Part shown: in pieces, positions 4,226-33,640 of the stretch | Numbering within the stretch: position 1 is the first letter of the stretch | Layout: each line of letters begins with the position of its first letter | Virus record (IMG/VR): IMGVR_UViG_3300020186_000005 | Coordinates: 1-35,554 of that record | Length of the DNA: 35,554 nt | Direction: 5' to 3' (one strand) | From: a virus | Program-made: the position numbers and the translations under genes | Notes under the pieces: model-generated | Seen by the model: only the letters and a program-made list of their open reading frames with translations | What the model was told of the DNA's origin: nothing | The model's database searches: none

Positions 4226-5176
4226 TTATAGTGCGGTTGTACGTAGACGATATACCCATGTACTATTCAATATGACTGGAGCTTCGGCAAACAAGAATCC
4301 TGCGGATGAGTTCTGTGCCAACGGTCCGGAATATATAGGTGGTCTGTAGATGAAGCGTGCTGAAGCACCATCTTGTTCTACGCAACCAATAGCTTCCATA
4401 CCAACAACAAATATGTTGTAGATGGCTTTGCCGTTCATAGACAATGCAGTTTCAACAGAACCGATTGAAGAGACTAGGAACCGAAGGTTACCTAATGCGC
4501 CCCATTCTGAACGAAGACTGCTTGAGCTCGATGCGTATTTATTCTTGTTGATGAACTCAGGAATTGCATTGAGAGTCTTGGTTAGCTTTGTAGAGCAAAG
4601 TGCAAAGAAGGCATCGCGTATTGGCGCGGTGTCATATTTATTTTGAGCTTCTATGCTATCAAGAATCATCATTGCATTATTGTCGAGCAAGAGCGATACG
4701 ACTTCATCAGCATCTGATTGAGTGATGATTGAAGGTACATCGCCACCAGCTGCAGTACAGTTAATGAACGGTGCCGCACCTGCAAGCAGGTCACGCATCA
4801 ATTCATCTTGTGTTTGGCGAAGACAAACTCCGAGTCTCAGCGTTGCATTATTAAGAACAGGATCTTGATACGTGAGTGTAACCTGTTGGTTTATTTCCAC
4901 GTACGTACCGAACCACGAAGGTGTTACATCTACAAACGTAGTTTGGAGACTCTTGCCTGGTGGAGTAGCGCCTGAGCGTCCTAGTGGTACTTTAGCTGTG
5001 CCAAGAGAATGGTACCGTTCCATACGGAGTGTTTGACCAGATCTTTTTGGCATTTTTTTGCGAATTGCTGGAATATTATGAATCATATTTGGGGTCGGAG
5101 TAGAGAGCATCTTCATAGCGAATGCTTTTTCTATGGGTGACTCAAAACCCGGTCCGTTCACGATATTAATGGCCAT
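4226..5176 (-). CDS. Major capsid protein, N4-gp56-like family (316 aa)
   Basis: This is the shell subunit of the head. Residues about 40-110 read KMPKRSGQTLRMERYHSLGTA..., then PPGKSLQTTFVDVTPSWFGTYVEINQQVTLTYQDPVLNNA, then ...QTQDELMRDLLAGA. This order (permissive R-Y start, GxxPPG, an aromatic strand ending in VEI, then a helical spine starting D-x-L/LMRD) is characteristic of N4-gp56-family coats with the HK97 fold. The length is somewhat short for the family. Scaffold lies upstream and decoration downstream, as expected. It has its own good RBS (AAGGAT, 6 nt) and a private promoter candidate at 5315-5344, fitting high expression. Confidence 0.8.
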   Translation of the reverse strand: MAINIVNGPGFESPIEKAFAMKMLSTPTPNMIHNIPAIRKKMPKRSGQTLRMERYHSLGTAKVPLGRSGATPPGKSLQTTFVDVTPSWFGTYVEINQQVTLTYQDPVLNNATLRLGVCLRQTQDELMRDLLAGAAPFINCTAAGGDVPSIITQSDADEVVSLLLDNNAMMILDSIEAQNKYDTAPIRDAFFALCSTKLTKTLNAIPEFINKNKYASSSSSLRSEWGALGNLRFLVSSIGSVETALSMNGKAIYNIFVVGMEAIGCVEQDGASARFIYRPPIYSGPLAQNSSAGFLFAEAPVILNSTWVYRLRTTAL

Positions 5177-7207: not shown

Positions 7208-9214
7208 CTAACTAACATTGCCACCAAGAGGAGGAAGTTGTTGAGCATCTTCTTGCTCTTCCTCTCTTCTTTGCGACTTAGCTATACTGCCTAATAACAG
7301 TAACTTTTCTATTCCAGCCAAGTCCATACTTTGTATCTCTTTAAGCGCTTTGACCATATCCAATAATCCACTCATATCATCGCGGTCAGCCTGAGCCAAA
7401 CGTTCTGTTGCCAGTGCATGGTTCTCATCAATGCGAGACAGCCGCTCGTCTCCGAGTGATTGTTGAGCGTGGGCATTGGCTTGTATGAGCTGCGCTTGTT
7501 GTTGTTGCGCTTGTTGTTGTTGCTGCTGAGTTTGTTGTTCACGCTTTTGCATATTGGCAATGATCTGCGACTTGTTTTGTATTGTTGCTGCTTCAATAAG
7601 GTCAGAAGGCTCGATAGGAACCCCAACGTCACGGAGCTGCAACATCATTGCGAACTGCAATTGCCTCTGGGTAGTCGTATTGAACCCTTCCTCAATAGCA
7701 CAATCATAGAGTCCAAAGTCTTTATTGTAGAACTCAGGCGCAGGCTCTTTGCGTAGTATGCGCTCTACCTTTGCAGCAGTGAAATTAGTCTGCATGGTAG
7801 TGAGTACAAGGTTTCCAAGTATCTTCTGCGCTCGATCAAGGTTAGAGAACAATGATTGGAGCGAGCTGAGCGACGCTCTTTGGCGTACCATCTCAACGAT
7901 ACCAGCCTTGTCATCAATAGCTGAACCCATTGCGGCCTCATTGACACCAGTAACTTTCATCATCTCATTAGCCAAAGCATCTGACATGGTAAAGAAAGAG
8001 GGGTCTATATGTGCTGGCTGAATCTTAACGATATCACCAATGTTAGCATCATCCTTCAATGGGATCGAGACCCCTTGGCCTGAGGCGTACATATCTGCAG
8101 GGTTGAGTGGCGCATTGACCTTATATACCCAGCCTGAATTGACCTGGCTCTCGAGCACCTCAAGTTCAACGATTCGTCTATGGTTATAGAGTGCCTGTGG
8201 GGTACGCAACATGCGAACCATTCCCTGCACCCTCAAAGGGTAATACGGGATATCTGATTGATAGTATGATACTACTGGTACGAAGTTGTAGGCATCAATG
8301 CCCAATGGATTGGCTCCATTATAGATGACTTCCCCTTCAACAAGGATCGCCGTGTGAACAGTCGGTACTGTCTGGTCAATAACTTTTATATTGGGGTAAA
8401 GCATCAAGAAGTCACGGAGTCCAGTTGAGTTCTCTGACTTCCATTCGAATGACTTGCCTGTGTTTGGGTCATAGAGTAATTTTTGTGGACGGTATGTTCG
8501 GTAATGGAACTCGTCATATGCCATGAGGTTACGGTAATTAGCCTGGAAGTTCTCTGGCATATACTGAAACTTACCATCCATAGTACCCGATGGGATCTTG
8601 AGAATATCATTTGCCATATCAGGCCATAGACTCATAATATCTGGCCGAGCCAAGAATGAACGTTTCCATAATGCACGACAATCAGAAAGATCGAGCTTGC
8701 GAAAGTATGGGTCTACGATAATGCCGTTATAGCCAACTCGGTTAAACTTGAGGTCTCCAGAAACAGGGTCATTTCTAAAGTCTAACGATAGCTCTAGGAA
8801 GTTCATGCCAGTGATCAATGCACCACGGAACGCCTCTGAGATGATCTCGTTGACCCCTTCGCGCTGATATTGCCACATAAGAAGAGAAGTGAACTGATCT
8901 GCTGTATCTTGGTCGCCACTCTCCTGAGGAGTAACGATAGTAGATTTGCGATGAGCCTGCTGATATCCGTCAACCACGTTAATGATAGGACGGACATGGT
9001 TGAACCCTATCGTATGCCTCTGGAATGCTCCAACAGAACCAAACGTTTCACTGTTGAGCGATGAATCTCCGGCCTCACAGCGCACATCGAGGTCGCCCTC
9101 TGCATGATAGGCTTGATTGATAGTGATCGCATCCTGATAGAAGTCGTCCATCATATCTTTAATATAACTATCGTCTGATGACTGATTAACAAAATACTTT
9201 GTATCTTGGCTCAT
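7208..9214 (-). CDS. Portal protein, P22 gp1-like (668 aa)
   Basis: This protein forms the dodecameric channel at the unique head vertex, through which DNA is pumped by the terminase and leaves on infection. The N-terminal part (MSQDTKYFVNQSSDDSYIKDMMDDFYQDAITINQAYHAEGDLDVR) shows the entry region of P22-type portals. The central part has the wing and stem region (VDGYQQAHRKSTIVTPQESGDQDTADQFTSLLMWQ). Residues about 575-605 are a long poly-Gln run, followed by a helical C-terminus, as in the coiled barrel of P22 portal. Length is close to the 725 residues of P22 gp1. RBS GGAGAG precedes ATG. It follows terminase by one small gene. Confidence 0.85.
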   Translation of the reverse strand: MSQDTKYFVNQSSDDSYIKDMMDDFYQDAITINQAYHAEGDLDVRCEAGDSSLNSETFGSVGAFQRHTIGFNHVRPIINVVDGYQQAHRKSTIVTPQESGDQDTADQFTSLLMWQYQREGVNEIISEAFRGALITGMNFLELSLDFRNDPVSGDLKFNRVGYNGIIVDPYFRKLDLSDCRALWKRSFLARPDIMSLWPDMANDILKIPSGTMDGKFQYMPENFQANYRNLMAYDEFHYRTYRPQKLLYDPNTGKSFEWKSENSTGLRDFLMLYPNIKVIDQTVPTVHTAILVEGEVIYNGANPLGIDAYNFVPVVSYYQSDIPYYPLRVQGMVRMLRTPQALYNHRRIVELEVLESQVNSGWVYKVNAPLNPADMYASGQGVSIPLKDDANIGDIVKIQPAHIDPSFFTMSDALANEMMKVTGVNEAAMGSAIDDKAGIVEMVRQRASLSSLQSLFSNLDRAQKILGNLVLTTMQTNFTAAKVERILRKEPAPEFYNKDFGLYDCAIEEGFNTTTQRQLQFAMMLQLRDVGVPIEPSDLIEAATIQNKSQIIANMQKREQQTQQQQQQAQQQQAQLIQANAHAQQSLGDERLSRIDENHALATERLAQADRDDMSGLLDMVKALKEIQSMDLAGIEKLLLLGSIAKSQRREEEQEDAQQLPPLGGNVS

Positions 9215-9679: not shown

Positions 9680-11047
9680 TCAATACCCTGGTATTTTGAA
9701 GTTTGGATTCAATGCTGCTGGCATCCTGCTTAATTGATCTTTACCCCGTACGCGCAACTGGGCTAACTCTTCAAGGGACATATCAGTCCCAAGCTTCTTC
9801 AGCCCAAGGCAGGCGTACCTAAAAGAATCGGCCATGTGACTGCTGGTGTCGTGGACGGGCTTATTGGTATACGTAGCATATTTCTCATCATAGACACGTC
9901 TGTAGGAATAGAGAGCCTTGATCAGGTCTTTGTTGTGCGCCCTGTCTATGTAGGTCTTAGGCAGCACCGTACGGCAAACCTCGATTGAATCAGCAAGGGG
10001 GAATGCATGGCCATTGGTCTCTATGATAGTGAACTGGAGGCCAAGCTGCTTAGCAATCTCGTATCGTGACCGCCCTGAGGTGTACTCACGTACCTTAATA
10101 TCATGAGGCGCAAAGTGCTTTATATACTTGTAAGGCTTGGCGTTCACTACCTTTATATAGTGTTCAAGCGACTTATTGTTATCTGAAAGTGACTCGATAA
10201 TAAAGAGCGTATTATTGATATATTGAAACCAGATGATTGCATTAAGGTCACGGATCCCAAGGTCGAAGCTTGTATACACTGGATGTGCTGGATCCCATGA
10301 GACTATGCCGAGACGACCTTGTCTATCCATCTCGTCCATATACTCACCCCAGAATGTACCCGATTGACCCATAGTGAAATCAACCCAGTATTCTTGACGA
10401 GCAAGCTGCCTGGACATCTCCCCGCGCTCAATATCAGCCTCAATATCAGTAATAGATATGTGCTTGGTGTCTTCAACCGTAAGCACTGAGGTGAACCATG
10501 ACTCTGGATTGGCTTTTGCCATCTCAATAAGCTCGTAGAAGTGATTTTTCCCTCTTGGCGTGCTTATAAATAGTGCCCACCCATTGTTTGCATTGAGTAT
10601 AGGACGACTCAACTCATAACACAGGGGATCTTGGAGCGCATACTCAGAGAATACCATGCCTCTGACGTTCGTACCTACAAGCACAGCGTCATAGTTATCT
10701 GAGCCAACCACGACTATCTGTGAATGGTTAGTCAAAGTGATCTTCATCTGTTGATCGTTCTTGGAAGCTATAAGTCCGGCAGGGATGAAGTCAAGGAACC
10801 GTACCCCGTCGTTCGTTATTGCGTCCCATAGGATCCGTCTCCCGGACGAGAACTTTGGGTAAACCAGGTAATAGGTACCAACCTCTAAAAGCGCCTTACG
10901 AAGCACGATATTGAGTGCGGTGAGGTCTTTGCCTGCGCGGCGGCACCAATTGACCACAGCGCGCTTGTATCCATCAACCAGTAGGGCTCGGATGAGTGGT
11001 ACTTGGTAGTCACGTGGAGTGAATTTATCGAGTGATATCTCTTTCAT
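9680..11047 (-). CDS. terL: Terminase large subunit
   Basis: This ATP-driven packaging motor and nuclease loads DNA through the portal. The ATPase has a Walker A variant CRRAGKD (residues 35-41), a Walker B ending MVFSEYAL (131-138) with E135 as catalytic Glu, and coupling motif STPRGKNHF (162-170). The C-terminal RNase H-like nuclease shows acidic residues in YTSFDLGIRD (D262), in HFAPHDIKVREY (D316) and in SSHMADSFRYA near residue 405. At 455 residues it is normal for podophages. RBS AAGGAG lies about 14 nt upstream of ATG. It is followed almost at once by the 146-residue gene. Packaging strategy (cos, pac or other) cannot be told from this. Confidence 0.92.
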   Translation of the reverse strand: MKEISLDKFTPRDYQVPLIRALLVDGYKRAVVNWCRRAGKDLTALNIVLRKALLEVGTYYLVYPKFSSGRRILWDAITNDGVRFLDFIPAGLIASKNDQQMKITLTNHSQIVVVGSDNYDAVLVGTNVRGMVFSEYALQDPLCYELSRPILNANNGWALFISTPRGKNHFYELIEMAKANPESWFTSVLTVEDTKHISITDIEADIERGEMSRQLARQEYWVDFTMGQSGTFWGEYMDEMDRQGRLGIVSWDPAHPVYTSFDLGIRDLNAIIWFQYINNTLFIIESLSDNNKSLEHYIKVVNAKPYKYIKHFAPHDIKVREYTSGRSRYEIAKQLGLQFTIIETNGHAFPLADSIEVCRTVLPKTYIDRAHNKDLIKALYSYRRVYDEKYATYTNKPVHDTSSHMADSFRYACLGLKKLGTDMSLEELAQLRVRGKDQLSRMPAALNPNFKIPGY

Positions 11048-12672: not shown

Positions 12673-13692
12673 TCAGCTGCATGGGCATGCGTGTGGGCAA
12701 GTCAGTTTACGTTGGTACCATGAACTTATGGGGATAGGCGTGCCGTTGTCATCAAGCGAGTAAGTACCCAGCTGCCCCTTGAGGTACTTTTTGCGTCCGT
12801 CGATGTCTAGGGACTGGAAATAGCAACAGGCGCCTTTCAGCCCAATGTTAACGACACGAGAAGAACCTACAACGGGACGAAGGGCAGGCTTTTTGGGCGT
12901 GATACCCCTGTACTTTGCCATGATCCGATCAATCTCCGCCTCGTTCGCTGCCAGTCTAAGCTTATTATCGACGTAGATCCCGGGGTCTGCCGGCGCTAAA
13001 TGAACCGTGTAAAAGCGTTTTTCCTCGTAATCGTCCTTTTCAAGACAATTCTTCTCCGATCCGGAGTTTAATTTATTAAACAAAACAACACTCTTATTCT
13101 TACATTCAAAGAGTTCAGTTTGAATACTTCCAACAACAAGCATACCTACACAAATTACATTGCGTAATGCAGGTATGAACTTCATCAGCTCATTTCTAAT
13201 ATAAGGATCCAGGGCGAGGGCTCCAGGGGAGAATTGGTTGACCATTTCGAAGCGCTGGTCGATCTCTACCAAGCCCAAACGTTCAAACAGCTTATATACT
13301 CCTGTAATAGTAGTTGATGAAGCGTCGACGCGGGTTTGTATATATGCATGGCTCATAGTTTTGCCTACTACCATAGCATCGATGACAAGGTCGGCAATTT
13401 CTTCCCCCTCTGGACTTAGGCGCTGAAGTGGGATTAATGCATGCTTAATGAGTTGGTCTTTGCCTGCCTTGTCGGCTGCAGCAATCTCAGCTTTTTTGGC
13501 AGCCTTAAATCTATCGTTGGCACGCGGTATACGGGGTTTTCCAGACCTTTGAGCGGGTACATAGGCGGCAGGTCGCTGCTGGACGGCGTTTCGTATAGAA
13601 ACTATAATGGGATTATTGGCCTTGTTAAAGGCTTTTTGAAGGCTTTGCTTCTTTTCTTGTTGACACTTTATTTCATTCTGTGCTATATTCAT
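12673..13692 (-). CDS. Winged-helix-like protein, possible replication initiator (339 aa)
   Basis: I chose ATG at 13692, which has GGAG about 8 nt upstream and overlaps the previous gene's stop (ATGA). Residues 1-70 are basic (KKQSLQKAFNKANN, then PAQRSGKPRIPRAND). The region around 95-150 (EIADLVIDAMVVGKTMSHAYIQTRVDASSTTITGVYKLFERLGLVEIDQRF) has the layout of a winged helix-turn-helix. It is followed by a longer domain of unknown fold, with Cys at several positions and a C-terminus ending CPHACPCS. As the last and longest gene of the leftward regulatory operon it may be a replication initiator or regulator, but that is inference. Residues 1-34 are duplicated in the neighbouring 103-residue gene. 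Confidence 0.6.
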   Translation of the reverse strand: MNIAQNEIKCQQEKKQSLQKAFNKANNPIIVSIRNAVQQRPAAYVPAQRSGKPRIPRANDRFKAAKKAEIAAADKAGKDQLIKHALIPLQRLSPEGEEIADLVIDAMVVGKTMSHAYIQTRVDASSTTITGVYKLFERLGLVEIDQRFEMVNQFSPGALALDPYIRNELMKFIPALRNVICVGMLVVGSIQTELFECKNKSVVLFNKLNSGSEKNCLEKDDYEEKRFYTVHLAPADPGIYVDNKLRLAANEAEIDRIMAKYRGITPKKPALRPVVGSSRVVNIGLKGACCYFQSLDIDGRKKYLKGQLGTYSLDDNGTPIPISSWYQRKLTCPHACPCS

Positions 13693-13780
13693 AGCGTTAT
13701 CTCCGGGAAGAGCGAACAAAAATTATAGAACGCAATCACACGACTGCGTTCTTTATTTTTTTCTATATATTTCTCGAACC
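13575..13780. repeat. ~205-bp imperfect direct repeat, copy 1
   Basis: It aligns to 13883-14086 with a 306-308 bp offset. It carries the first part of the 339-residue gene and the hairpin at 13727-13752. The shared blocks include GGACGGCGTTTCGTATAGAAA, GGCCTTGTTAAAGGCTTTT and CGCAATCACACGACTGCG. The two copies have diverged by substitutions and a small indel. Confidence 0.85.
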
Positions 13781-14000
13781 TTATTCTACAACAATTTCCT
13801 ACTTTTAACAATCTGCGCCGCATACCCAATTGAAGGATTATATCAGCCATTTTTTGCTTGGTACTTTTATCGACGGTAAACAGCTGCTGGACGGCGTTTC
13901 GTATAGAAAATATACGGGGATTATTGGCCTTGTTAAAGGCTTTTCGTAGTCTTAGTTTTTTTTCTTCTTGACACTTTATTTGATTCTGTGCTATATTCAT
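13689..14000 (-). CDS. Decayed duplicate of the winged-helix protein N-terminus (103 aa)
   Basis: Residues 1-34 (MNIAQNQIKCQEEKKLRLRK..., NNPRIFSIRNAVQQ) match the start of the 339-residue protein nearly residue for residue, then diverge. The frame then reads through the second repeat copy's hairpin region (...VIAFYNFCSLFPEITL) and ends TGA inside the next gene's start codon (ATGA). This looks like a tandem duplication in which only the leader and the first 34 codons were kept. Its own RBS is weak. It may act as a translated leader or be non-functional. Other than the basic N-terminus it has no recognisable domain. Confidence 0.55.
   Translation of the reverse strand: MNIAQNQIKCQEEKKLRLRKAFNKANNPRIFSIRNAVQQLFTVDKSTKQKMADIILQLGMRRRLLKVGNCCRIRFEKYIEKNKERSRVIAFYNFCSLFPEITL
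13727..13752. other. Hairpin in repeat copy 1, possible terminator/operator
   Basis: AGAACGCA (13727-13734) pairs with TGCGTTCT (13745-13752), 8 bp with a 10-nt loop. It is followed by TTATTTTTTT on the plus strand, and by ATAATTTTTG on the minus strand. That gives terminator character in both directions. It lies inside the 103-residue gene just before the start of the 339-residue gene. Confidence 0.6.
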
Positions 14001-14086
14001 TGCGTTAACCCAGCCAAGGTAACAAAAATTATAGAACGCAATCACACGACTGCGTTCTTTGTTTTTTTCTAGGTATTTCTCGAACC
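13883..14086. repeat. ~205-bp imperfect direct repeat, copy 2
   Basis: Second copy of the repeat at 13575-13780. It covers the first codons of the 103-residue gene, its upstream region and the hairpin at 14033-14058. Together the copies indicate a tandem duplication of a leader, hairpin and gene start. Confidence 0.85.
14033..14058. other. Hairpin in repeat copy 2, possible terminator/operator
   Basis: AGAACGCA (14033-14040) pairs with TGCGTTCT (14051-14058). On the minus strand it lies between the 98-residue gene stop (14121) and the 103-residue gene start (14000), and is followed by ATAATTTTTG. The stem and loop are identical to the copy at 13727-13752, showing conservation while flanks changed. 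Confidence 0.6.
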
Positions 14087-14120
14087 GTACTGGTTCAATT
14101 AGCTATTATACTACACCCCA

Positions 14121-15753: not shown

Positions 15754-16026
15754 ATGACAAATAGACTAGAACTGTGGGCAATCATAGCCAAAGAAGCGTA
15801 TGAAGCACAGCAGCAGCGTTTAGAAGCTACCTACAAGGAACGAAAGCTAATAGACCAGCTGAAAGCATTGTCAGATAATAAAAGTGCAACCTGTGGCGAA
15901 TACGTGTTCGCCCTGTCATTCCGCAAAGGCAGCGTAGATTACAAGCGCATACCTTCACTGGTTGGTATCGACCTCGATGAATATCGGAGCGAAGACGTGG
16001 AAACATGGAAACTACTCAGAATATAA
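15754..16026 (+). CDS. Small early protein (90 aa)
   Basis: ATG at 15754 follows the previous stop by 1 nt and a CGGAGA site by about 8 nt. The N-terminal helix (MTNRLELWAIIAKEAYEAQQQRLEATYKERKLIDQL) is charged and amphipathic, a coiled-coil candidate. The C-terminal half has GEYVFALSFRKGSVDYKRIPSLVGIDLDEY. This loosely resembles the helical start plus beta tail of Gp157-like phage proteins, which lie next to annealing genes, but I cannot confirm that. Confidence 0.65.
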   Translation: MTNRLELWAIIAKEAYEAQQQRLEATYKERKLIDQLKALSDNKSATCGEYVFALSFRKGSVDYKRIPSLVGIDLDEYRSEDVETWKLLRI

Positions 16027-16046: not shown

Positions 16047-16373
16047 ATGAACAATGAAATGACCATTAACCTTGACCAAAGATTTATCGATATAATGACA
16101 AGCATTTTAAGGCTTGTCATCGAATTACAAACAGAAGGCCACGCTGCAAAAGCCGCTGGTGACCACGAAAAGGTCAATTATGCGTTCGCAAACATGTGTA
16201 TGCTTGATGAATTCATGGCAGATGCAACAGGTACATTCATGAAACTCGTACCCTCAGAAAGGATAGAATACTTAGAAGCGTTCTTTAAAAACGTGCGCGA
16301 AGTAAAACTGTCACTTGGGGATCAAAAACCAAATTTCGCTATGCGATTGGAAGAGGATACTCATGGATTATAG
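16047..16373 (+). CDS. Small helical early protein (108 aa)
   Basis: ATG at 16047 has AGGAA about 7 nt upstream and is preferred to an upstream start inside the previous gene. It is helix-rich (INLDQRFIDIMTSILRLVIELQ..., AAKAAGDHEKVNYAFANMCMLDEFMADATG...). It precedes the Erf-like gene and overlaps it by 11 nt, so a recombination accessory role (single-strand DNA or annealing partner) is plausible but not shown. No zinc or nuclease motif is visible. Confidence 0.6.
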   Translation: MNNEMTINLDQRFIDIMTSILRLVIELQTEGHAAKAAGDHEKVNYAFANMCMLDEFMADATGTFMKLVPSERIEYLEAFFKNVREVKLSLGDQKPNFAMRLEEDTHGL

Positions 16374-16968
16374 ATCAGAACACGTAAACGAGATCATTGG
16401 CGTACTCATAGACACCCGTAACGAACTATTGTCCATACAAGGCTCACAGCACGGTAATCGTGGAACCTATATCGGACGCGATGAGATGATCGAACAAGCC
16501 AATCTCATCCTGTTGCCATTTGGTGCTCAAGTCGTCCCCCGATTGCTGCCAAACGAATACAATAGACTCAATCTCCATATAGAACTTCACCATGCAAAGT
16601 CAGGCCAATGGATGAGCTCAGTGTATAACCTCGATGAACACATGGACTTCTCTGAGGGTGACGTTAATCAGAAGAAAGGTTCAAGTATCACCTATGGTAT
16701 CAGATACGCCTTAGGGTCGATGCTCGGTATCAAGATAGGTGACGACGATGCCCCTGCTAAGACACCAAGTCATCAGGGTAACTCATCTGACCCGTCCCAA
16801 TTGGTCAAACGAGTCTGGGCAGAAATCTACAAGATAACCGATCCCAAAGAGCGTACGCTATTAATAAATCTAATCAGCAATAGCCTCGAAGGCGTACGCA
16901 TCAATGCCATGAGTGACGAGCAGTGCAGAGCCGCACTAGAAATAATTGTAAAATATATGGCGCGGTAG
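16363..16968 (+). CDS. erf: Erf-type single-strand annealing recombinase (201 aa)
   Basis: The start ATG at 16363 has GAAGAGGA upstream and overlaps the previous gene by 11 nt. The core (about residues 30-135) has the Erf hallmarks: GRDEMIEQANLILLPFGAQVVPRL, then LHIELHHAKSGQWMSSVY, then QKKGSSITYGIRYALGSMLGIKI, the conserved G-x-x-x-T/S-Y-x-x-R-Y segment of the Erf/Rad52-like superfamily. A short Ser/Pro linker follows the GDDDAPAKTP segment, then a helical C-terminus. Erf anneals complementary ends, and in P22 it circularises packaged DNA and supports recombination-dependent replication. This is the only clear DNA-metabolism enzyme in the window. Confidence 0.85.
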   Translation: MDYRSEHVNEIIGVLIDTRNELLSIQGSQHGNRGTYIGRDEMIEQANLILLPFGAQVVPRLLPNEYNRLNLHIELHHAKSGQWMSSVYNLDEHMDFSEGDVNQKKGSSITYGIRYALGSMLGIKIGDDDAPAKTPSHQGNSSDPSQLVKRVWAEIYKITDPKERTLLINLISNSLEGVRINAMSDEQCRAALEIIVKYMAR

Positions 16969-16994
16969 ACATATTGCTACCGTGTCCTTTGTGA

Positions 16995-17022
16995 CCCCCT
17001 CACTAGTCGCTTCTTGAGGGGG
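16995..17022 (+). terminator. Hairpin after the Erf gene, weak terminator
   Basis: CCCCCTCA (16995-17002) pairs with TGAGGGGG (17015-17022), an 8-bp GC-rich stem with a 12-nt loop. It is followed by ATAATATTCT, weakly U-rich, so readthrough into the 72-residue gene at 17043 is expected. It could set a lower level for the micro-gene array downstream. Confidence 0.6.
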
Positions 17023-17042
17023 ATAATATTCTGGGAAAATAA

Positions 17043-17261
17043 ATGTATGATGAATTAAGCCGAGCTATATTAAGACAAGATGTAGACTTCGTCGCCGCTA
17101 AGCTAGATGTGTCCCATAGAGGGCTCCAAAATCATTTATCCATATCGTACAACGCGTTGCTCCAATTCATGAAGGGCAAAACGATAACAAGCAGAACCTA
17201 TAATCGACTACGTACCGATATCACCAGGCTCAAAAACGATGACAAATCAAGGGAAGCCTAA
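17043..17261 (+). CDS. Small basic protein with possible HTH (72 aa)
   Basis: ATG at 17043 follows a GGGAAAAT site. The middle (FVAAKLDVSHRGLQNHLSISYNALLQFMKGKTI) resembles a helix-turn-helix with a basic recognition helix, and the C-terminus is basic (RLRTDITRLKNDDKSREA). A DNA-binding role, for instance early-gene regulation, is a modest inference. Its stop TAA overlaps the next ATG (TAATG). No close family recognised. Confidence 0.55.
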   Translation: MYDELSRAILRQDVDFVAAKLDVSHRGLQNHLSISYNALLQFMKGKTITSRTYNRLRTDITRLKNDDKSREA

Positions 17262-17374
17262 TGGACGAAATTGCCGAAATAATACGTATATTTGACTTCG
17301 CACTCATCGTGGGAATAACCTTTTTGGTACTATTACAGTTCATTTGCAACTTCACTAACTATGAATTGTTGTAA
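17261..17374 (+). CDS. Tiny one-span membrane protein (37 aa)
   Basis: The frame starts in the stop of the preceding gene (TAATG) and overlaps the next gene by 14 nt. It reads MDEIAEIIRIFDFALIVGIT and ends FLVLLQFICNFTNYELL. The middle (about residues 12-31) is a single membrane span with an acidic N-terminal side. It is too short for common annotation cutoffs. Perfect packing into the operon supports it. A holin-like, exclusion or regulatory membrane peptide is possible. Confidence 0.6.
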   Translation: MDEIAEIIRIFDFALIVGITFLVLLQFICNFTNYELL

Positions 17375-17543
17375 CTGCATTGGTATGGATACATGCAATG
17401 CGTGCGAAATCATTGAAAAAACAACCACTATCGCGTGGCTAAAGACCGGACACAAAGAGTCGTTCGTCAAAGTATCACGCCTACAAGTAGATGGATGCCG
17501 ACGAGAACTGCAAGTAATAACTACATATAAAGGGATAGTATGA
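17361..17543 (+). CDS. Small zinc-ribbon-like protein (60 aa)
   Basis: The N-terminus reads MNCCNCIGMDTCNACE. Two CxxC pairs (C3/C6 and C12/C15) make a compact metal site. A basic, beta-prone tail follows (VKVSRLQVDGCRRELQVITTYKG). Such small zinc proteins in early phage operons often bind RNA polymerase or nucleases, but the partner is not visible here. It overlaps the membrane gene before it and the next gene by ATGA. Cysteines 3 and 4 are adjacent, so the exact ligands are uncertain. Confidence 0.6.
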   Translation: MNCCNCIGMDTCNACEIIEKTTTIAWLKTGHKESFVKVSRLQVDGCRRELQVITTYKGIV

Positions 17544-17821
17544 TAATAAGCCAAAAAAAGCCCAATGTGTCAGCAAAAAGCTTCTACAAAGCGAAACTCG
17601 ATAGACTAGCAGGCATCATTGAACTCAAGGATGTAACCCTTGCCGATCAAGCAAGAATCATCAAAGAGATGAACGATAGACTCGCGATCTATAAACATAC
17701 CAGGGCAATAACAGAGCAAGATCTTGTCCGGGTCGTCAATAGAAATATATCAACCCTAAGAATCGTCTGGATAATCCCATGCTTGATTACAATTTTAATC
17801 GAAATTATAAAGAATCTGTAG
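17540..17821 (+). CDS. Coiled-coil plus C-terminal membrane anchor (93 aa)
   Basis: ATGA coupling to the zinc-ribbon-like gene. Residues about 12-60 form a charged helix (KLDRLAGIIELKDVTLADQARIIKEMNDRL) suited to a coiled coil. Residues about 74-90 are hydrophobic (IVWIIPCLITILIEII), a probable C-terminal tail anchor, leaving the charged helical part exposed in the cytoplasm. This tail-anchored plan recurs among phage i-spanin-like or exclusion proteins, but no exact match is claimed. It overlaps the next gene by 43 nt. Confidence 0.6.
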   Translation: MIISQKKPNVSAKSFYKAKLDRLAGIIELKDVTLADQARIIKEMNDRLAIYKHTRAITEQDLVRVVNRNISTLRIVWIIPCLITILIEIIKNL

Positions 17822-18066
17822 CCAATAAAGGCAATAGCATCAAAGCGTCCATTGGGCGCGAGATCATCAGATACAAGAAGTATACAGATATGCGGCTTGT
17901 AGAAGATAACACCGATATCAAAGGCCAGTTCGATGTGATACTCAAAAACACCCAAGAAGCAATAAAGTTGCTCATCACTCAGTATGGAGTAACCATAATC
18001 GCCGAGCTAGATGAGTACCGCAACAAAGACAAGGGAATCGACTATGAATCCGAAAAGAAACTATGA
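17779..18066 (+). CDS. Small early protein (95 aa)
   Basis: No family recognised. It overlaps the tail-anchored gene by 43 nt and has no strong RBS, so the start may lie further in; an alternative ATG at 17890 gives MRLVEDN. The sequence is charged and helical (IKGQFDVILKNTQEAIKLLITQYG..., DEYRNKDKGIDYESEKKL). Its end overlaps the ribbon-helix-helix gene at 18044. A regulatory partner role for that protein is a speculation from position only. Confidence 0.5.
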   Translation: MLDYNFNRNYKESVANKGNSIKASIGREIIRYKKYTDMRLVEDNTDIKGQFDVILKNTQEAIKLLITQYGVTIIAELDEYRNKDKGIDYESEKKL

Positions 18067-18217
18067 GTCTAAGAAAGTAATGGTAATAATGGATATATTC
18101 CATAAATGGTACCTCGAAGAGTTTGCTCATCAAAAACGTATTACGCAAAATGAGGCGTTGCATATCATGCTCAGTGATTATTGCGCTGCGCACCCTATTG
18201 CAAAAAAGGGCGACTGA
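18044..18217 (+). CDS. Ribbon-helix-helix-like regulator (57 aa)
   Basis: ATG 18044 has AAGGGAA at good spacing. The protein starts with basic residues then a beta-strand (MNPKRNYESKKVMVIMDI). Two helices separated by a turn follow (FHKWYLEEFAHQKRI, TQNEALHIMLSDYC). This strand-helix-turn-helix plan and small size fit Arc/CopG/MetJ regulators that bind DNA as dimers through the strand. It sits in the middle of the small-gene array. Target unknown. Stop overlaps next start (TGATG). Confidence 0.6.
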   Translation: MNPKRNYESKKVMVIMDIFHKWYLEEFAHQKRITQNEALHIMLSDYCAAHPIAKKGD

Positions 18218-18477
18218 TGAATGAAAACATATACGAAAAGATGAGGATCGTAGAACTTGCGCGAACTGAGCTTGTTGAGGCGATGCTTGCTGGGATATCT
18301 TACAAGCAGATGTCATTTGGAACCAATATACCCTGGGATAGGCTATCGGGCTTTGCAAACTATGGTCTGCGTATAGAGGACGAAGAGCTGCGCTCTATCT
18401 GTGACTATATTGCTCAAGCTAACCCTCGCCAGGAAAGACTCACCGAAAAATCTGCCAGTTACTTCGGTAAGAATTAA
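18217..18477 (+). CDS. Small helix-turn-helix-like protein (86 aa)
   Basis: ATG at 18217 overlaps the preceding stop; AAAGGGCG lies upstream. The sequence MNENIYEKMRIVELARTELVEA is a long helix. MLAGISYKQMSFGTNIPWDRLSGFANYGLRIEDEELRSICDYI then has spacing like a Cro-type fold (helix, turn, recognition helix, further helix). DNA binding is plausible, but the recognition helix is not basic enough to be sure. Function unknown. Confidence 0.5.
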   Translation: MNENIYEKMRIVELARTELVEAMLAGISYKQMSFGTNIPWDRLSGFANYGLRIEDEELRSICDYIAQANPRQERLTEKSASYFGKN

Positions 18478-18490
18478 TATAAGGGCTCGT

Positions 18491-18619
18491 ATGATTTGGG
18501 ATAACTTAACGCATGATGATTGGATACTTGTAATCTACGGATTTGCTATGATCTCTGTTTTCCTTTTGATACTTGCGGGCGCAACAAACAAACTACCAAT
18601 GGTAAGAGGGTTATTCTAA
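18491..18619 (+). CDS. Tiny membrane protein (42 aa)
   Basis: ATG at 18491 has AAGGGC about 5 nt upstream. The N-terminus is polar/acidic (MIWDNLTHDDW). Residues about 12-32 (ILVIYGFAMISVFLLILAGAT) make one membrane span, and the C-terminal loop is short and basic (NKLPMVRGLF), so the N-terminus probably faces outside. Its stop overlaps the next start (TAATG). Function unknown; membrane stress, holin-like or exclusion roles possible. Confidence 0.6.
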   Translation: MIWDNLTHDDWILVIYGFAMISVFLLILAGATNKLPMVRGLF

Positions 18620-18789
18620 TGGATAAGGGATGTTTTTTCTGCTACGAGAACAACCAGGATCATTGTTTTAAGTGCATAAAGCGAAATCGCGATAAAGACA
18701 TCTATGCGATTTCATATCGTTCATTTGGGTTGATATTTAGCGTCTTAATCATCGTGATAGGGATCGTTATGTGGGCGGGTCTCAAATGA
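18619..18789 (+). CDS. Zinc-knuckle membrane protein (56 aa)
   Basis: It has a cytoplasmic-type cysteine cluster then a membrane span. Cluster: MDKGCFFCYENNQDHCFKCIKR, with CxxC at residues 5-8 and CxxC at 16-19, spacing suited to one zinc ion. Span: SFGLIFSVLIIVIGIVMWAGLK (about 35-55). Small proteins with both features are rare outside such arrays. They can hold host proteins at the membrane. It overlaps the next gene by ATGA. No family recognised. Confidence 0.6.
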   Translation: MDKGCFFCYENNQDHCFKCIKRNRDKDIYAISYRSFGLIFSVLIIVIGIVMWAGLK

Positions 18790-18977
18790 AACAAATAATT
18801 CGCGATCATGCATGCCTGAATGGGACCTGTGCCGATCATCGACTCGATCTTGTCATTGCCAATACGGAACACTTCACCGAGATTCAGTCCCTTAGGTTTT
18901 ATCTGTATGCGTCGTGGGCTATCTTCGGAATCGTTATATCAGGACTTATTTTTTTCAGGAATATATATGGACAATAA
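18786..18977 (+). CDS. Small one-span membrane protein (63 aa)
   Basis: The N-terminal part has an uncommon CLNGTCADH loop (residues 10-18, C-x4-C) followed by acidic/helical IANTEHFTEIQSLRFYL. A membrane span is at about 40-58 (YASWAIFGIVISGLIFF), with a short basic end (RNIYGQ). It starts in the stop of the previous gene (ATGA) and overlaps the next by 11 nt. Function unknown. Confidence 0.6.
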   Translation: MKQIIRDHACLNGTCADHRLDLVIANTEHFTEIQSLRFYLYASWAIFGIVISGLIFFRNIYGQ

Positions 18978-19182
18978 CAATAGTGATCTAGAACTGCTTG
19001 CAGGCGCAATCAAGACATGCGTACGCGGCGTATTAACCCTGGTAATTGTCCTAGCCCTATTCTTTAAGGTCATCAACTTTGGAGATTGGTATCTCAGGCG
19101 CAGGATAACGGTACAACATTTCCAGGCCGAGACCGTCAGAAGCTTTTTCGGTGATTGGGGAGCAGAGAGAGATGAAGACTGA
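18967..19182 (+). CDS. One-span membrane protein with charged tail (71 aa)
   Basis: MDNNNSDLELLAGAIKTCVRG is acidic at first; about residues 20-38 (GVLTLVIVLALFFKVINFG) form a membrane span. A basic and aromatic C-terminus follows (DWYLRRRITVQHFQAETVRSFFGDWG). The positive-inside bias (LRRR after the span) suggests the C-terminus is cytoplasmic. The RBS is weak; it overlaps the gene before. It ends the run of membrane genes, 23 nt before the secreted protein. Function unknown. Confidence 0.55.
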   Translation: MDNNNSDLELLAGAIKTCVRGVLTLVIVLALFFKVINFGDWYLRRRITVQHFQAETVRSFFGDWGAERDED

Positions 19183-19205: not shown

Positions 19206-19475
19206 ATGATTAAGAAATTACTTCTCGCGTTGACCATTGCAACCACAGCCCAAGCATATATACCAGCATTTGAATACGAGAGCTTGCTCACCACTCTCTT
19301 CCTTGAAGTAGACGTTGAGATGCCGCGCATTGCCATGCAAGAACTAGTCAAACAATATGGTTTATGGGTTGAGGCCTACACCGAAGAAGTTTCGACCCGC
19401 AAAGACGTAGTATATATGGCACGCATCAACCACATGATTGCAGAAGTTATGATTAGCTACCAGTTTGGTAATTAA
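19206..19475 (+). CDS. Secreted (Sec signal peptide) protein (89 aa)
   Basis: MIKKLLLALTIATTAQA has a typical signal peptide: basic start, hydrophobic core, and A-x-A cleavage site before YIPAFEYE. The mature part is helical with acidic face (SLLTTLFLEVDVEMPRIAMQELVKQYGLWVEAY..., VYMARINHMIAEVMISYQFGN), so the product is periplasmic or secreted. AAGGAT lies upstream of ATG. An early-expressed periplasmic protein could block superinfection or act in lysis, but neither is shown. No lysozyme or amidase motif is visible. Confidence 0.65.
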   Translation: MIKKLLLALTIATTAQAYIPAFEYESLLTTLFLEVDVEMPRIAMQELVKQYGLWVEAYTEEVSTRKDVVYMARINHMIAEVMISYQFGN

Positions 19476-19689
19476 CTTTGTATGGATAGAATCCGATCAG
19501 TTTTTTGTCAGGATTGATAGCAAAAAGTATTATTTGAACCTGTGCCGTGAAAAGCGTCAATATGCGTACGTCAAAGATAGAGTGCGATACCCATTGAAGT
19601 ATCCATTTGTATTCTATGATGCACCTGATAACTTTGAATACACTATGATAGATTTTGGAGATAAACTAAATTCAACGATAAAAGCATAG
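19465..19689 (+). CDS. Small C-terminal protein of the early operon, TTG start (74 aa)
   Basis: The frame begins at TTG in the last codons of the secreted gene and runs in the +1 frame. The product is polar and beta-prone (FVWIESDQFFVRIDSKKYYLNLCREKRQYAYVKDRVRYPLKYPFVFYDAPDNFEYT). The start is uncertain; there is no good ATG or RBS. It could be a real coupled gene or the remainder of a longer gene after a frameshift, the fusion then being a secreted protein of about 160 residues. It ends 37 nt before the terminator. Confidence 0.45.
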   Translation: MVINFVWIESDQFFVRIDSKKYYLNLCREKRQYAYVKDRVRYPLKYPFVFYDAPDNFEYTMIDFGDKLNSTIKA

Positions 19690-19726: not shown

Positions 19727-19755
19727 GCCCCTACTTGTTGTGGGGGCTTTTTTTT
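19727..19755 (+). terminator. Intrinsic terminator ending the early operon
   Basis: GCCCCTAC (19727-19734) pairs with GTGGGGGC (19740-19747), with one G-T pair and a TTGTT loop, then eight T. This is a textbook rho-independent terminator, placed 37 nt after the last small gene. Confidence 0.9.
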
Positions 19756-19878
19756 GATATATTCAGCACGGATCATCTGAACGAATCATCTGATCCAAGT
19801 GGTCTAAACGTGGGGCTAACATGCCCACAACTGCCCCAGGATTCGCCTCTTGGGGTCTGTATTTACTAAGGAGTATTA
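19756..19878 (+). promoter_or_regulatory. Structured leader of the co-chaperonin gene
   Basis: No gene fits here. It contains two ATCATCTGA direct copies (19772-19780, 19785-19793) within a GGATCA/TGATCC inverted pair. Three competing segments follow: TGGGGC (19811-19816) can pair with GCCCCA (19833-19838), or CCCCAGGA (19834-19841) can pair with TCTTGGGG (19848-19855) around loop TTCGCC. GTGGG/CCCAC (19810-19814, 19824-19828) is a third option. The RBS AAGGAG (19868-19873) is close downstream. No promoter -10 was convincingly seen. Confidence 0.55.
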
Positions 19879-20166
19879 ATGCCTAAATTACATCCATTTC
19901 ATGATCGTGTTCTTGTCAGAGTAACCCCAAAGGTTGAGATGACTGCCGGTGGAATCATATTGCCTGATGAGCTTGAGCCAAGTGAGACACATGGCATTGT
20001 TGTTGAGGTTGGTTGCGGTAAACCAGATGATAAAGGGATATGCAGCGGAATGCCCATAAGCGTTGGCGATACTGTCCACTTCTCTAATTTTGCCCGTAGA
20101 GAGCAATACGAAGATTGCATTGTACTAAAAGAAGAAGATATATTTGGTATAGTTTATAGGCAGTAA
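19879..20166 (+). CDS. groES: GroES-like co-chaperonin (95 aa)
   Basis: This is the Cpn10 partner that caps GroEL-type chambers during protein folding. The sequence follows GroES: HPFHDRVLVRV near the start, mobile loop EMTAGGIILPDEL (residues about 20-32) with the hydrophobic IIL triplet that contacts GroEL, then G-I-V-V-E-V-G-x-G, VGDTVHF and the C-terminal strand DIFGIVYRQ. Length 95 matches bacterial GroES (97). Phage T4 gp31 is the known precedent for a phage-encoded version; here it probably lets host GroEL accept the coat or fibre proteins. It has its own leader and is bounded by terminators on both sides, so it is regulated apart from the early operon. RBS is AAGGAG. Confidence 0.9.
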   Translation: MPKLHPFHDRVLVRVTPKVEMTAGGIILPDELEPSETHGIVVEVGCGKPDDKGICSGMPISVGDTVHFSNFARREQYEDCIVLKEEDIFGIVYRQ

Positions 20167-20219: not shown

Positions 20220-20253
20220 CCCCCATTCTTGTTGGATGGGGGTATTTAATATT
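20220..20253 (+). terminator. Intrinsic terminator of groES
   Basis: CCCCCAT (20220-20226) pairs with ATGGGGG (20236-20242), 7 bp with a 9-nt loop, followed by TATTTAATATT. The U-rich tail fits rightward termination of the groES message. Confidence 0.8.
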
Positions 20254-32627: not shown

Positions 32628-33149
32628 ATGGAAATAAACAACAGTACATTGCTTTCACTAACCCAATCATATGACCCTACTCAGATCAGGGAATTGGAGA
32701 CTGATTCAGAAGAATTCAAAGAGTTCCTGGTACAATTATATCTTACTACGAACGATATACTTAGTAATTTAAATCTTAAAGACAGTGGCCAGTATGGAAA
32801 GACCAAGTCTATATCTGGTCAACAATACTTTCCCAATCCTGCAGACCCCGCAAATGCCTTAAGATCTAGTGTGCGCGTTGCCTTTGATATGCCAGGTCTC
32901 GTAAATAACGGCACAACTGTGGTTAATCTTGCTGATTTCGGCGTGGTATTCGATAATAAAGTTACCTTTGTTAACCATCGAGTTATTGCAACAAGCTCAA
33001 CATCATTACTATCATTTTCACTCAACTTTTATGATGGTGCTAATATAGCTCGATACAGAATTACACAAACACAAGTAATTATAACCACCGTAGGAATCTT
33101 CAATGCCTTCGATAAAGTTCAAGTAGTACTTGAATACATAATCGATTAG
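32628..33149 (+). CDS. Beta-rich virion appendage-like protein on the opposite strand (173 aa)
   Basis: It is preceded by AAAGGA. The N-terminus is helical and polar (MEINNSTLLSLTQSYDPTQIRELETDSEEFKEF...), then a beta-rich half with GQQYFPNPADPANALRSSVRVAFDM and ...VIATSSTSLLSFSLNFYDGAN. The GQQ-Y/W-F-P-N-P motif with beta strands is similar to attachment proteins of podophages. It is read against its structural neighbours and its stop overlaps the opposing stop by 4 nt (33146-33149). A virion role is a weak inference. Confidence 0.5.
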   Translation: MEINNSTLLSLTQSYDPTQIRELETDSEEFKEFLVQLYLTTNDILSNLNLKDSGQYGKTKSISGQQYFPNPADPANALRSSVRVAFDMPGLVNNGTTVVNLADFGVVFDNKVTFVNHRVIATSSTSLLSFSLNFYDGANIARYRITQTQVIITTVGIFNAFDKVQVVLEYIID

Positions 33150-33640
33150 CCACGGCCAAAATACACCCCGAGGAATGTACCTAGAACGCCAATTGCTCCC
33201 GTAGCTATCGTACCTATGAGTGCAAGCCTAGCCTTCTTGAGCCTGGTATCAGCCAATTCTTTCAGCTCAGCAAACTGATCGTTCTTGCCCTTGAAGGCAT
33301 CTTCTACAGACTCAGTAATAAGCCTGTGGATCAATATCTTTAGCGCCTTTTCGTCATCGTCAATGAGTATTCGTCGGATATCTGAGTCTGAGTTGCGTAG
33401 TTTTTCTTTGAGGTGCGGCTCTATTTCGTGCTGTATCTCGAGACTTTCTCGCTTAAAGTATGATACTACCAAGGCCTGAAACCGATCGTCATCGGCCTTG
33501 CCTGTTTGATCGTATTTAATGAGAAGTGACGATATCTGGCTGATGATCTCAGTCGAAGATGGTTTATTTGAGGTAAGTTGATTCTCTGTATCCATGGCAC
33601 ATGCCTCTACACTTATCAACATGATCAACAATCTTTTCAT
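33146..33640 (-). CDS. Signal peptide plus C-terminal membrane-span protein (164 aa)
   Basis: Start at 33640 (AGGGA upstream). The N-terminus MKRLLIMLISVEACAMDTEN looks like a signal peptide, either cut after ACA or lipidated at the Cys of VEAC (an imperfect lipobox). A charged helical body follows (ISSLLIKYDQTGKADDDRFQALVVSYFKRESLEIQHE...). The C-terminal part is a hydrophobic span (LALIGTIATGAIGVLGTFLGVYFG). It might be a spanin-like or virion-membrane protein; no lysin motif. It is the last gene of the unit that begins with the tail hub, 19 nt after it. Confidence 0.55.
   Translation of the reverse strand: MKRLLIMLISVEACAMDTENQLTSNKPSSTEIISQISSLLIKYDQTGKADDDRFQALVVSYFKRESLEIQHEIEPHLKEKLRNSDSDIRRILIDDDEKALKILIHRLITESVEDAFKGKNDQFAELKELADTRLKKARLALIGTIATGAIGVLGTFLGVYFGRG

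Follow-up and report, generated by a model that had tools for sequence, protein, structure and literature searches.

A chain of orphan small genes, rich in predicted membrane spans, beside the Erf gene of a podovirus-like phage genome

Two described systems come closest to the locus analysed here. The host takeover module of Bacillus phage SPO1 comprises genes 37-60 (PMC6873191, PMC10531801), and superinfection exclusion in P22 involves SieA, a protein of 162-164 residues with three spans that is made from the prophage (PMC10883804). The present locus is found in the IMG/VR record IMGVR_UViG_3300020186_000005, of which positions 1-35,554 of one viral record, that is, the whole stretch of 35,554 nt, were analysed and are referred to as the window. 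Its genes are small, tightly packed and without known relatives, they are located outside the structural operon, and gene content at the same site is variable among related phages. Orphan small-gene islands are already a known kind; it is these sequences that are new. On balance, we lean somewhat towards reading the locus as an early-type accessory island, assembled from cassettes, whose proteins serve host interaction, in takeover or superinfection exclusion, and would act on the host membrane and on host expression.

The window probably holds the complete phage genome, of about 35.4 kb, because its ends carry a 127-base repeat and end repeats of 123 or 127 bases recur in 8 of 16 relatives, which would fit closure at the word length of the assembler. 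As read from its genes (Table 1), the phage appears podovirus-like, namely, an uncultured short-tailed phage. A capsid scan for close relatives found none, and prophage relatives, as a guide to the host, yielded two MAG contigs only, which are not decisive. The small genes belong to a plus-strand operon that spans 15.2-20.2 kb; the structural genes at one end diverge from it, and the tail-fibre genes at the other end converge on it. The small genes are bounded by Erf upstream and by a strong terminator downstream. A search for a strong sigma-70 promoter directly upstream of g0 found none, no tRNA was found, and no known RNA family was matched. Four C-run/G-run hairpins are distributed along the operon, at 16994-17023 (after Erf), 19727-19747 (after g12), and 19833-19856 and 20220-20242 (before and after the GroES-like gene), only some of them with a T tract. 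The Cpn10 gene behind the island is absent from 16 of 16 related genomes; its matches among phage records are 31-39% identical, and several of these records look bacterial. Elsewhere, a segment of about 200 bp, which consists of the start of the gene at 12673-13692 plus a hairpin, is duplicated (13575-13783 versus 13883-14089, 88-94% identity), the second copy being truncated.

Table 1. Features of the window that frame or form the small-gene island. SD, pairing energy in kcal/mol.
Feature	Position	Strand	Description and support
Capsid	4226-5176		
P22-like portal	7208-9214		PF16510, 1e-58
TerL	9680-11047		
e-2, neighbouring gene of the island	15754-16026		
Erf-like annealing protein	16363-16968		phrog_155, 3.5e-12
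g0	17043-17261	+	72 aa, HTH-like by eye, opens the island; SD -4.2
g1	17261-17374	+	37 aa, predicted span 7-25; TAATG junction, SD -5.3
g2	17361-17543	+	60 aa, N-terminal CxxC-x5-CxxC (C3/C6, C12/C15); without SD
g3	17540-17821	+	93 aa, layout of a tail-anchored protein with its span (72-90) at the C-terminus; ATGA junction, SD -5.1
g4	17779-18066	+	95 aa, soluble, without relatives; SD -3.1, codon score 0.222 (best of the ten)
g5	18044-18217	+	57 aa, candidate RHH-like; SD -5.3
g6	18217-18477	+	86 aa, candidate HTH-like; TGATG junction, SD -4.4
g7	18491-18619	+	42 aa, predicted span 12-30; SD -5.0
g8	18619-18789	+	56 aa, CxxC-x7-CxxC (C5/C8, C16/C19), then C-terminal span 37-55; TAATG junction, SD -6.3
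g9	18786-18977	+	63 aa, HxCx4CxxH by eye, predicted span 39-57; ATGA junction, SD -6.2
g10	18967-19182	+	71 aa, predicted span 18-36, RRR after the span; SD -4.3
g11	19206-19475	+	89 aa, signal-peptide-like start by eye; SD -5.9, codon score 0.219
g12	19465-19689	+	doubtful gene with TTG start, at most 74 aa; ORF only, weak codon score
Intrinsic terminator closing the island	19727-19755	+	8-bp stem, T8 tract, -16.2 kcal/mol, z -3.7
GroES-like co-chaperonin Cpn10	19879-20166		PF00166, 1.5e-18

The first-pass annotation had placed ten small genes at 17261-19182, and all ten ORFs are found there (g1 to g10); the unit itself reaches further, to g0 before them and to g11 and perhaps g12 after them, which brings the island to 11-13 small genes. 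The junctions among the ten were described as TAATG, ATGA and longer overlaps, and these are indeed present (TAATG at 17259-17263 and 18617-18621, ATGA at 17540 and 18786, overlaps of 14, 43, 23 and 11 nt), together with one TGATG (18215-18219) and one 13-nt gap. The start of g4 is uncertain because of the 43-nt overlap. Single spans, expected in five or six proteins, were predicted in six, namely, g1, g3, g7, g8, g9 and g10; likewise, the two paired CxxC sites that had been noticed are those of g2 and g8, and the 56-residue g8 does join such a pair to a span. Zinc-cysteine and span proteins had been said to alternate, which is true only loosely, the order being span, Zn, span, soluble, RHH-like, HTH-like, span, Zn plus span, span, span. 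Paired CxxC sites with x5 or x7 spacing are confined to g2 and g8 among the 119 ATG ORFs of 37-100 aa in the six frames of this genome. As for the spans, they occur in 6 of 12 island genes and in 4 of the phage's 42 other genes (p = 0.005), a richness that is notable against the other genes of the phage but not against random ORFs; because 13 of 53 chance ORFs opposite the late genes also show a span, this richness alone proves little. The product of g11 is probably exported or secreted.

None of the proteins was assigned to a family, as the defining family features were verified for none of them, and this agrees with the earlier impression that no family is recognisable: searches against Pfam, PHROGs, NCBIfam and PADLOC gave nothing above noise, nor did the PADLOC defence profiles, with which ten proteins were scanned, give anything meaningful. 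For g5, the NCBIfam RepA/CopB subfamily was reached at E 0.029, below cut-off, and its predicted model (pLDDT 81) matched CopG with Z 4.0 over 38 residues; CopG/Arc chains (Z 3.6-4.0) were level with unrelated chains, so that no structural match stands out. The profile of g6 gave Pfam HTH_26 at E = 0.078, with 13.7 bits versus a cut-off of 22, and its model is poor (pLDDT 55), which renders the structural search meaningless. The PADLOC scan gave only a partial match, of 14.7 bits over 45 residues, of g4 to a reverse-transcriptase-associated model, and g0 shows weak similarity to an ORF of one relative, L004 (reached in 0 of 500 shuffles, in a comparison of 21 pairs). A PDB sequence search with g0, g5 and g8 returned nothing. 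Relatives of the phage were collected by terminase alignment, which gave 80 related loci, 39-49% identical, and 16 related genomes were read in pieces. No relative of the array proteins was present in 81 loci and these 16 genomes, though the structural core is common to them; six array proteins compared with a phage collection had no relative there, and none turned up when phages and viral contigs were searched by blastn, tblastn and sequence patterns, or in a single genome scan.

Could many of the shortest frames be chance ORFs, in a stretch with fewer real genes? g2, without SD and with a negative codon score, would suit this possibility, chance spans are common, and no close relative of the island phage was found in which the frames could be compared. 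Against it stand the statistics of the whole set. The island forms a chain of 12 abutting ATG ORFs, whereas 300 shuffles gave a mean of 2.1 and a maximum of 6, the antisense strand gave 2 and windows opposite the late genes 1-3; when an SD of -3 kcal/mol or better is required, the chain is still of 9, versus a shuffle maximum of 4. SD pairing of -4 kcal/mol or better precedes 10 of 12 starts versus some 21% of the other ATGs in the region, with mean energies of -4.4 and -2.1, respectively (Mann-Whitney p = 2e-4), and the SDs of two of the smallest genes, g1 and g7, are -5.0 or better. With the exception of g2, each gene has a higher codon score in its own frame than in either of the remaining plus frames; the in-frame score is negative for g2, slightly negative for g8, g9 and g0, and positive for the rest. 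Moreover, the paired CxxC is restricted to g2 and g8, and the operon would contain long empty gaps without these frames. Based on the chain, SD and codon-score statistics, the frames are real as a set, beyond chance, and we regard it as unlikely that many of the shortest ones are spurious. The least secure of the ten is g2, joined in the whole set by the TTG-started g12.

The site itself is variable. From Erf to the tail fibres, the interval measures 68-860 nt in ten relatives, 1.9 kb in another (L010) and 3.3 kb here. Among the 16 genomes no array protein has a relative, and in relatives the matching site contains 0-2 genes. Span proteins of up to 100 aa on the Erf strand likewise number 0-2 per relative, versus five called plus g8 here. 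A search with e-2 led to L119 (same contig as L011) and L120, close relatives of each other (83-90% DNA identity), in which two single-span microgenes of L119 are swapped for a different gene with clean borders. Close to Erf and on its strand, both carry an e-2 homologue (40-41%), a CxxC-x8-CxxC microprotein and an RHH-like protein, which may be compared with e-2, the paired-CxxC genes and the candidate RHH-like g5 here; all three are kept between them with dN below dS (dN 0.06 and dS 0.16 for the microprotein; dN 0.04 and dS 0.48 for e-2; dN 0.03 and dS 0.42 for the RHH-like gene). However, their microgenes are fewer, show no detectable homology to the array, and lie upstream of Erf, where the swap also sits, whereas the island is downstream. 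Both this swap and an exchange of the Erf-type protein itself lie at about 5850-8200 of L119 and L120. Cassette turnover thus builds such operons in the relatives, and it may have built this island; the exchange between L119 and L120 is, in addition, an argument against an essential role of the span microgenes of this operon.

These data suggest a polycistronic accessory island that occupies a variable site, flanked by the recombination gene erf and by the convergently oriented tail-fibre genes. Because of the moderate SDs and the stop-start overlaps, its proteins would be produced jointly. Those with a single span, a tail anchor or an export signal would reside in or across the host inner membrane, where this membrane set may alter host functions or block the entry of rival phages, and the HTH/RHH-like proteins and the soluble g4 may act on gene expression. 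The genes would behave as independent cassettes, of which one or two are gained or lost in each step, and not as one conserved machine. We infer takeover or exclusion because the genes are small and tightly coupled, have a membrane or DNA-binding character, lack homologues and turn over fast next to a recombination gene, as do host-takeover and exclusion genes of known phages (SPO1 module, PMC6873191; P22 SieA, PMC10883804); the mosaic site and the neighbouring operon would fit takeover, exclusion or anti-defence roles. The island does follow Erf, as the first-pass annotation had it, and its description as early would follow from gene order and linkage to erf only. It is tempting to speculate that the microproteins with single spans, zinc knuckles and export signals are co-translated and assemble into one membrane complex, e.g. 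an entry gate or a sensor directed at competing phages. The g8 zinc knuckle would then face the cytoplasm, and the HTH/RHH-like proteins would connect the complex with gene control; we consider this a long shot, which, if true, would be a new kind of multi-microprotein exclusion device.

The main rival of takeover or exclusion is lysis, because no endolysin is recognisable among the window proteins scanned. The island would then be, or contain, a lysis cassette, in which one or more single-span proteins act as holin, antiholin or single-gene lysis protein and g11 as periplasmic lysis factor, and it does hold five of the genome's called small span proteins, plus g8. Profiles of endolysins, holins and spanins matched no array protein, divergent lysis genes being beyond their reach, and PF00959 is absent in 25 records; the window and G001-G024 form an uncultured podovirus-like group with a shared structural core. 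Yet relatives with no or few span genes at this site must also lyse, close relatives differ by the exchange of span microgenes, and the island is grouped with erf, not with the structural operon. In addition, signal-plus-span proteins are encoded among the structural genes of most relatives, with one here at 33146-33640, so that we judge a lysis cassette improbable. Even less probable, and in our view very unlikely, are toxin-antitoxin or addiction pairs, with the HTH/RHH-like regulators (g0, g5, g6) beside tiny membrane toxins (g1, g7). The order regulator-then-span does occur twice (g0-g1 and g6-g7), but no toxin family was matched, and a duplicated HTH-span-Zn module was rejected, as the similarity of g0 to g6 and of g2 to g8 does not exceed that of shuffled sequences, and that of g1 to g7 does so only marginally.

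Among the structural genes, signal-peptide proteins that end in ...CAM/FSM, followed by a span, are found repeatedly (33146-33640 here; 1633-2558 in L121; small secreted genes of G019 and G020), and are candidates for lysis or envelope roles. Their signal-peptide style recalls intracellular Dependentiae, which may be the hosts; a literature search on Dependentiae podoviruses provided nothing useful.

The island delivers a defined set of orphan small phage proteins, probably encoded by real genes and rich in membrane microproteins, and it maps a variable site in an uncultured podovirus-like group, where the L119/L120 pair illustrates the gain and loss of such microgenes in the form of cassettes. 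The set could also be taken directly into expression screens for host-targeting or exclusion proteins. When compared with the known systems, P22 SieA is encoded by the phage and resides in the inner membrane, and its kind of activity is what we propose for the span proteins of the island; those of the array differ in having one span and 37-93 residues, and no sequence relation to SieA was found (PMC10883804). The SPO1 module, like the island, consists mostly of small genes with ribosome-binding sites and little similarity to known proteins, set apart from the structural genes (PMC6873191, PMC10531801). It is larger, it forms part of the terminal redundancy, and both its expression early in infection and its targets in the host have been measured (PMC6873191, PMC10531801), whereas the early timing and host action of the island are predictions; the island, in turn, is the richer of the two in predicted spans.
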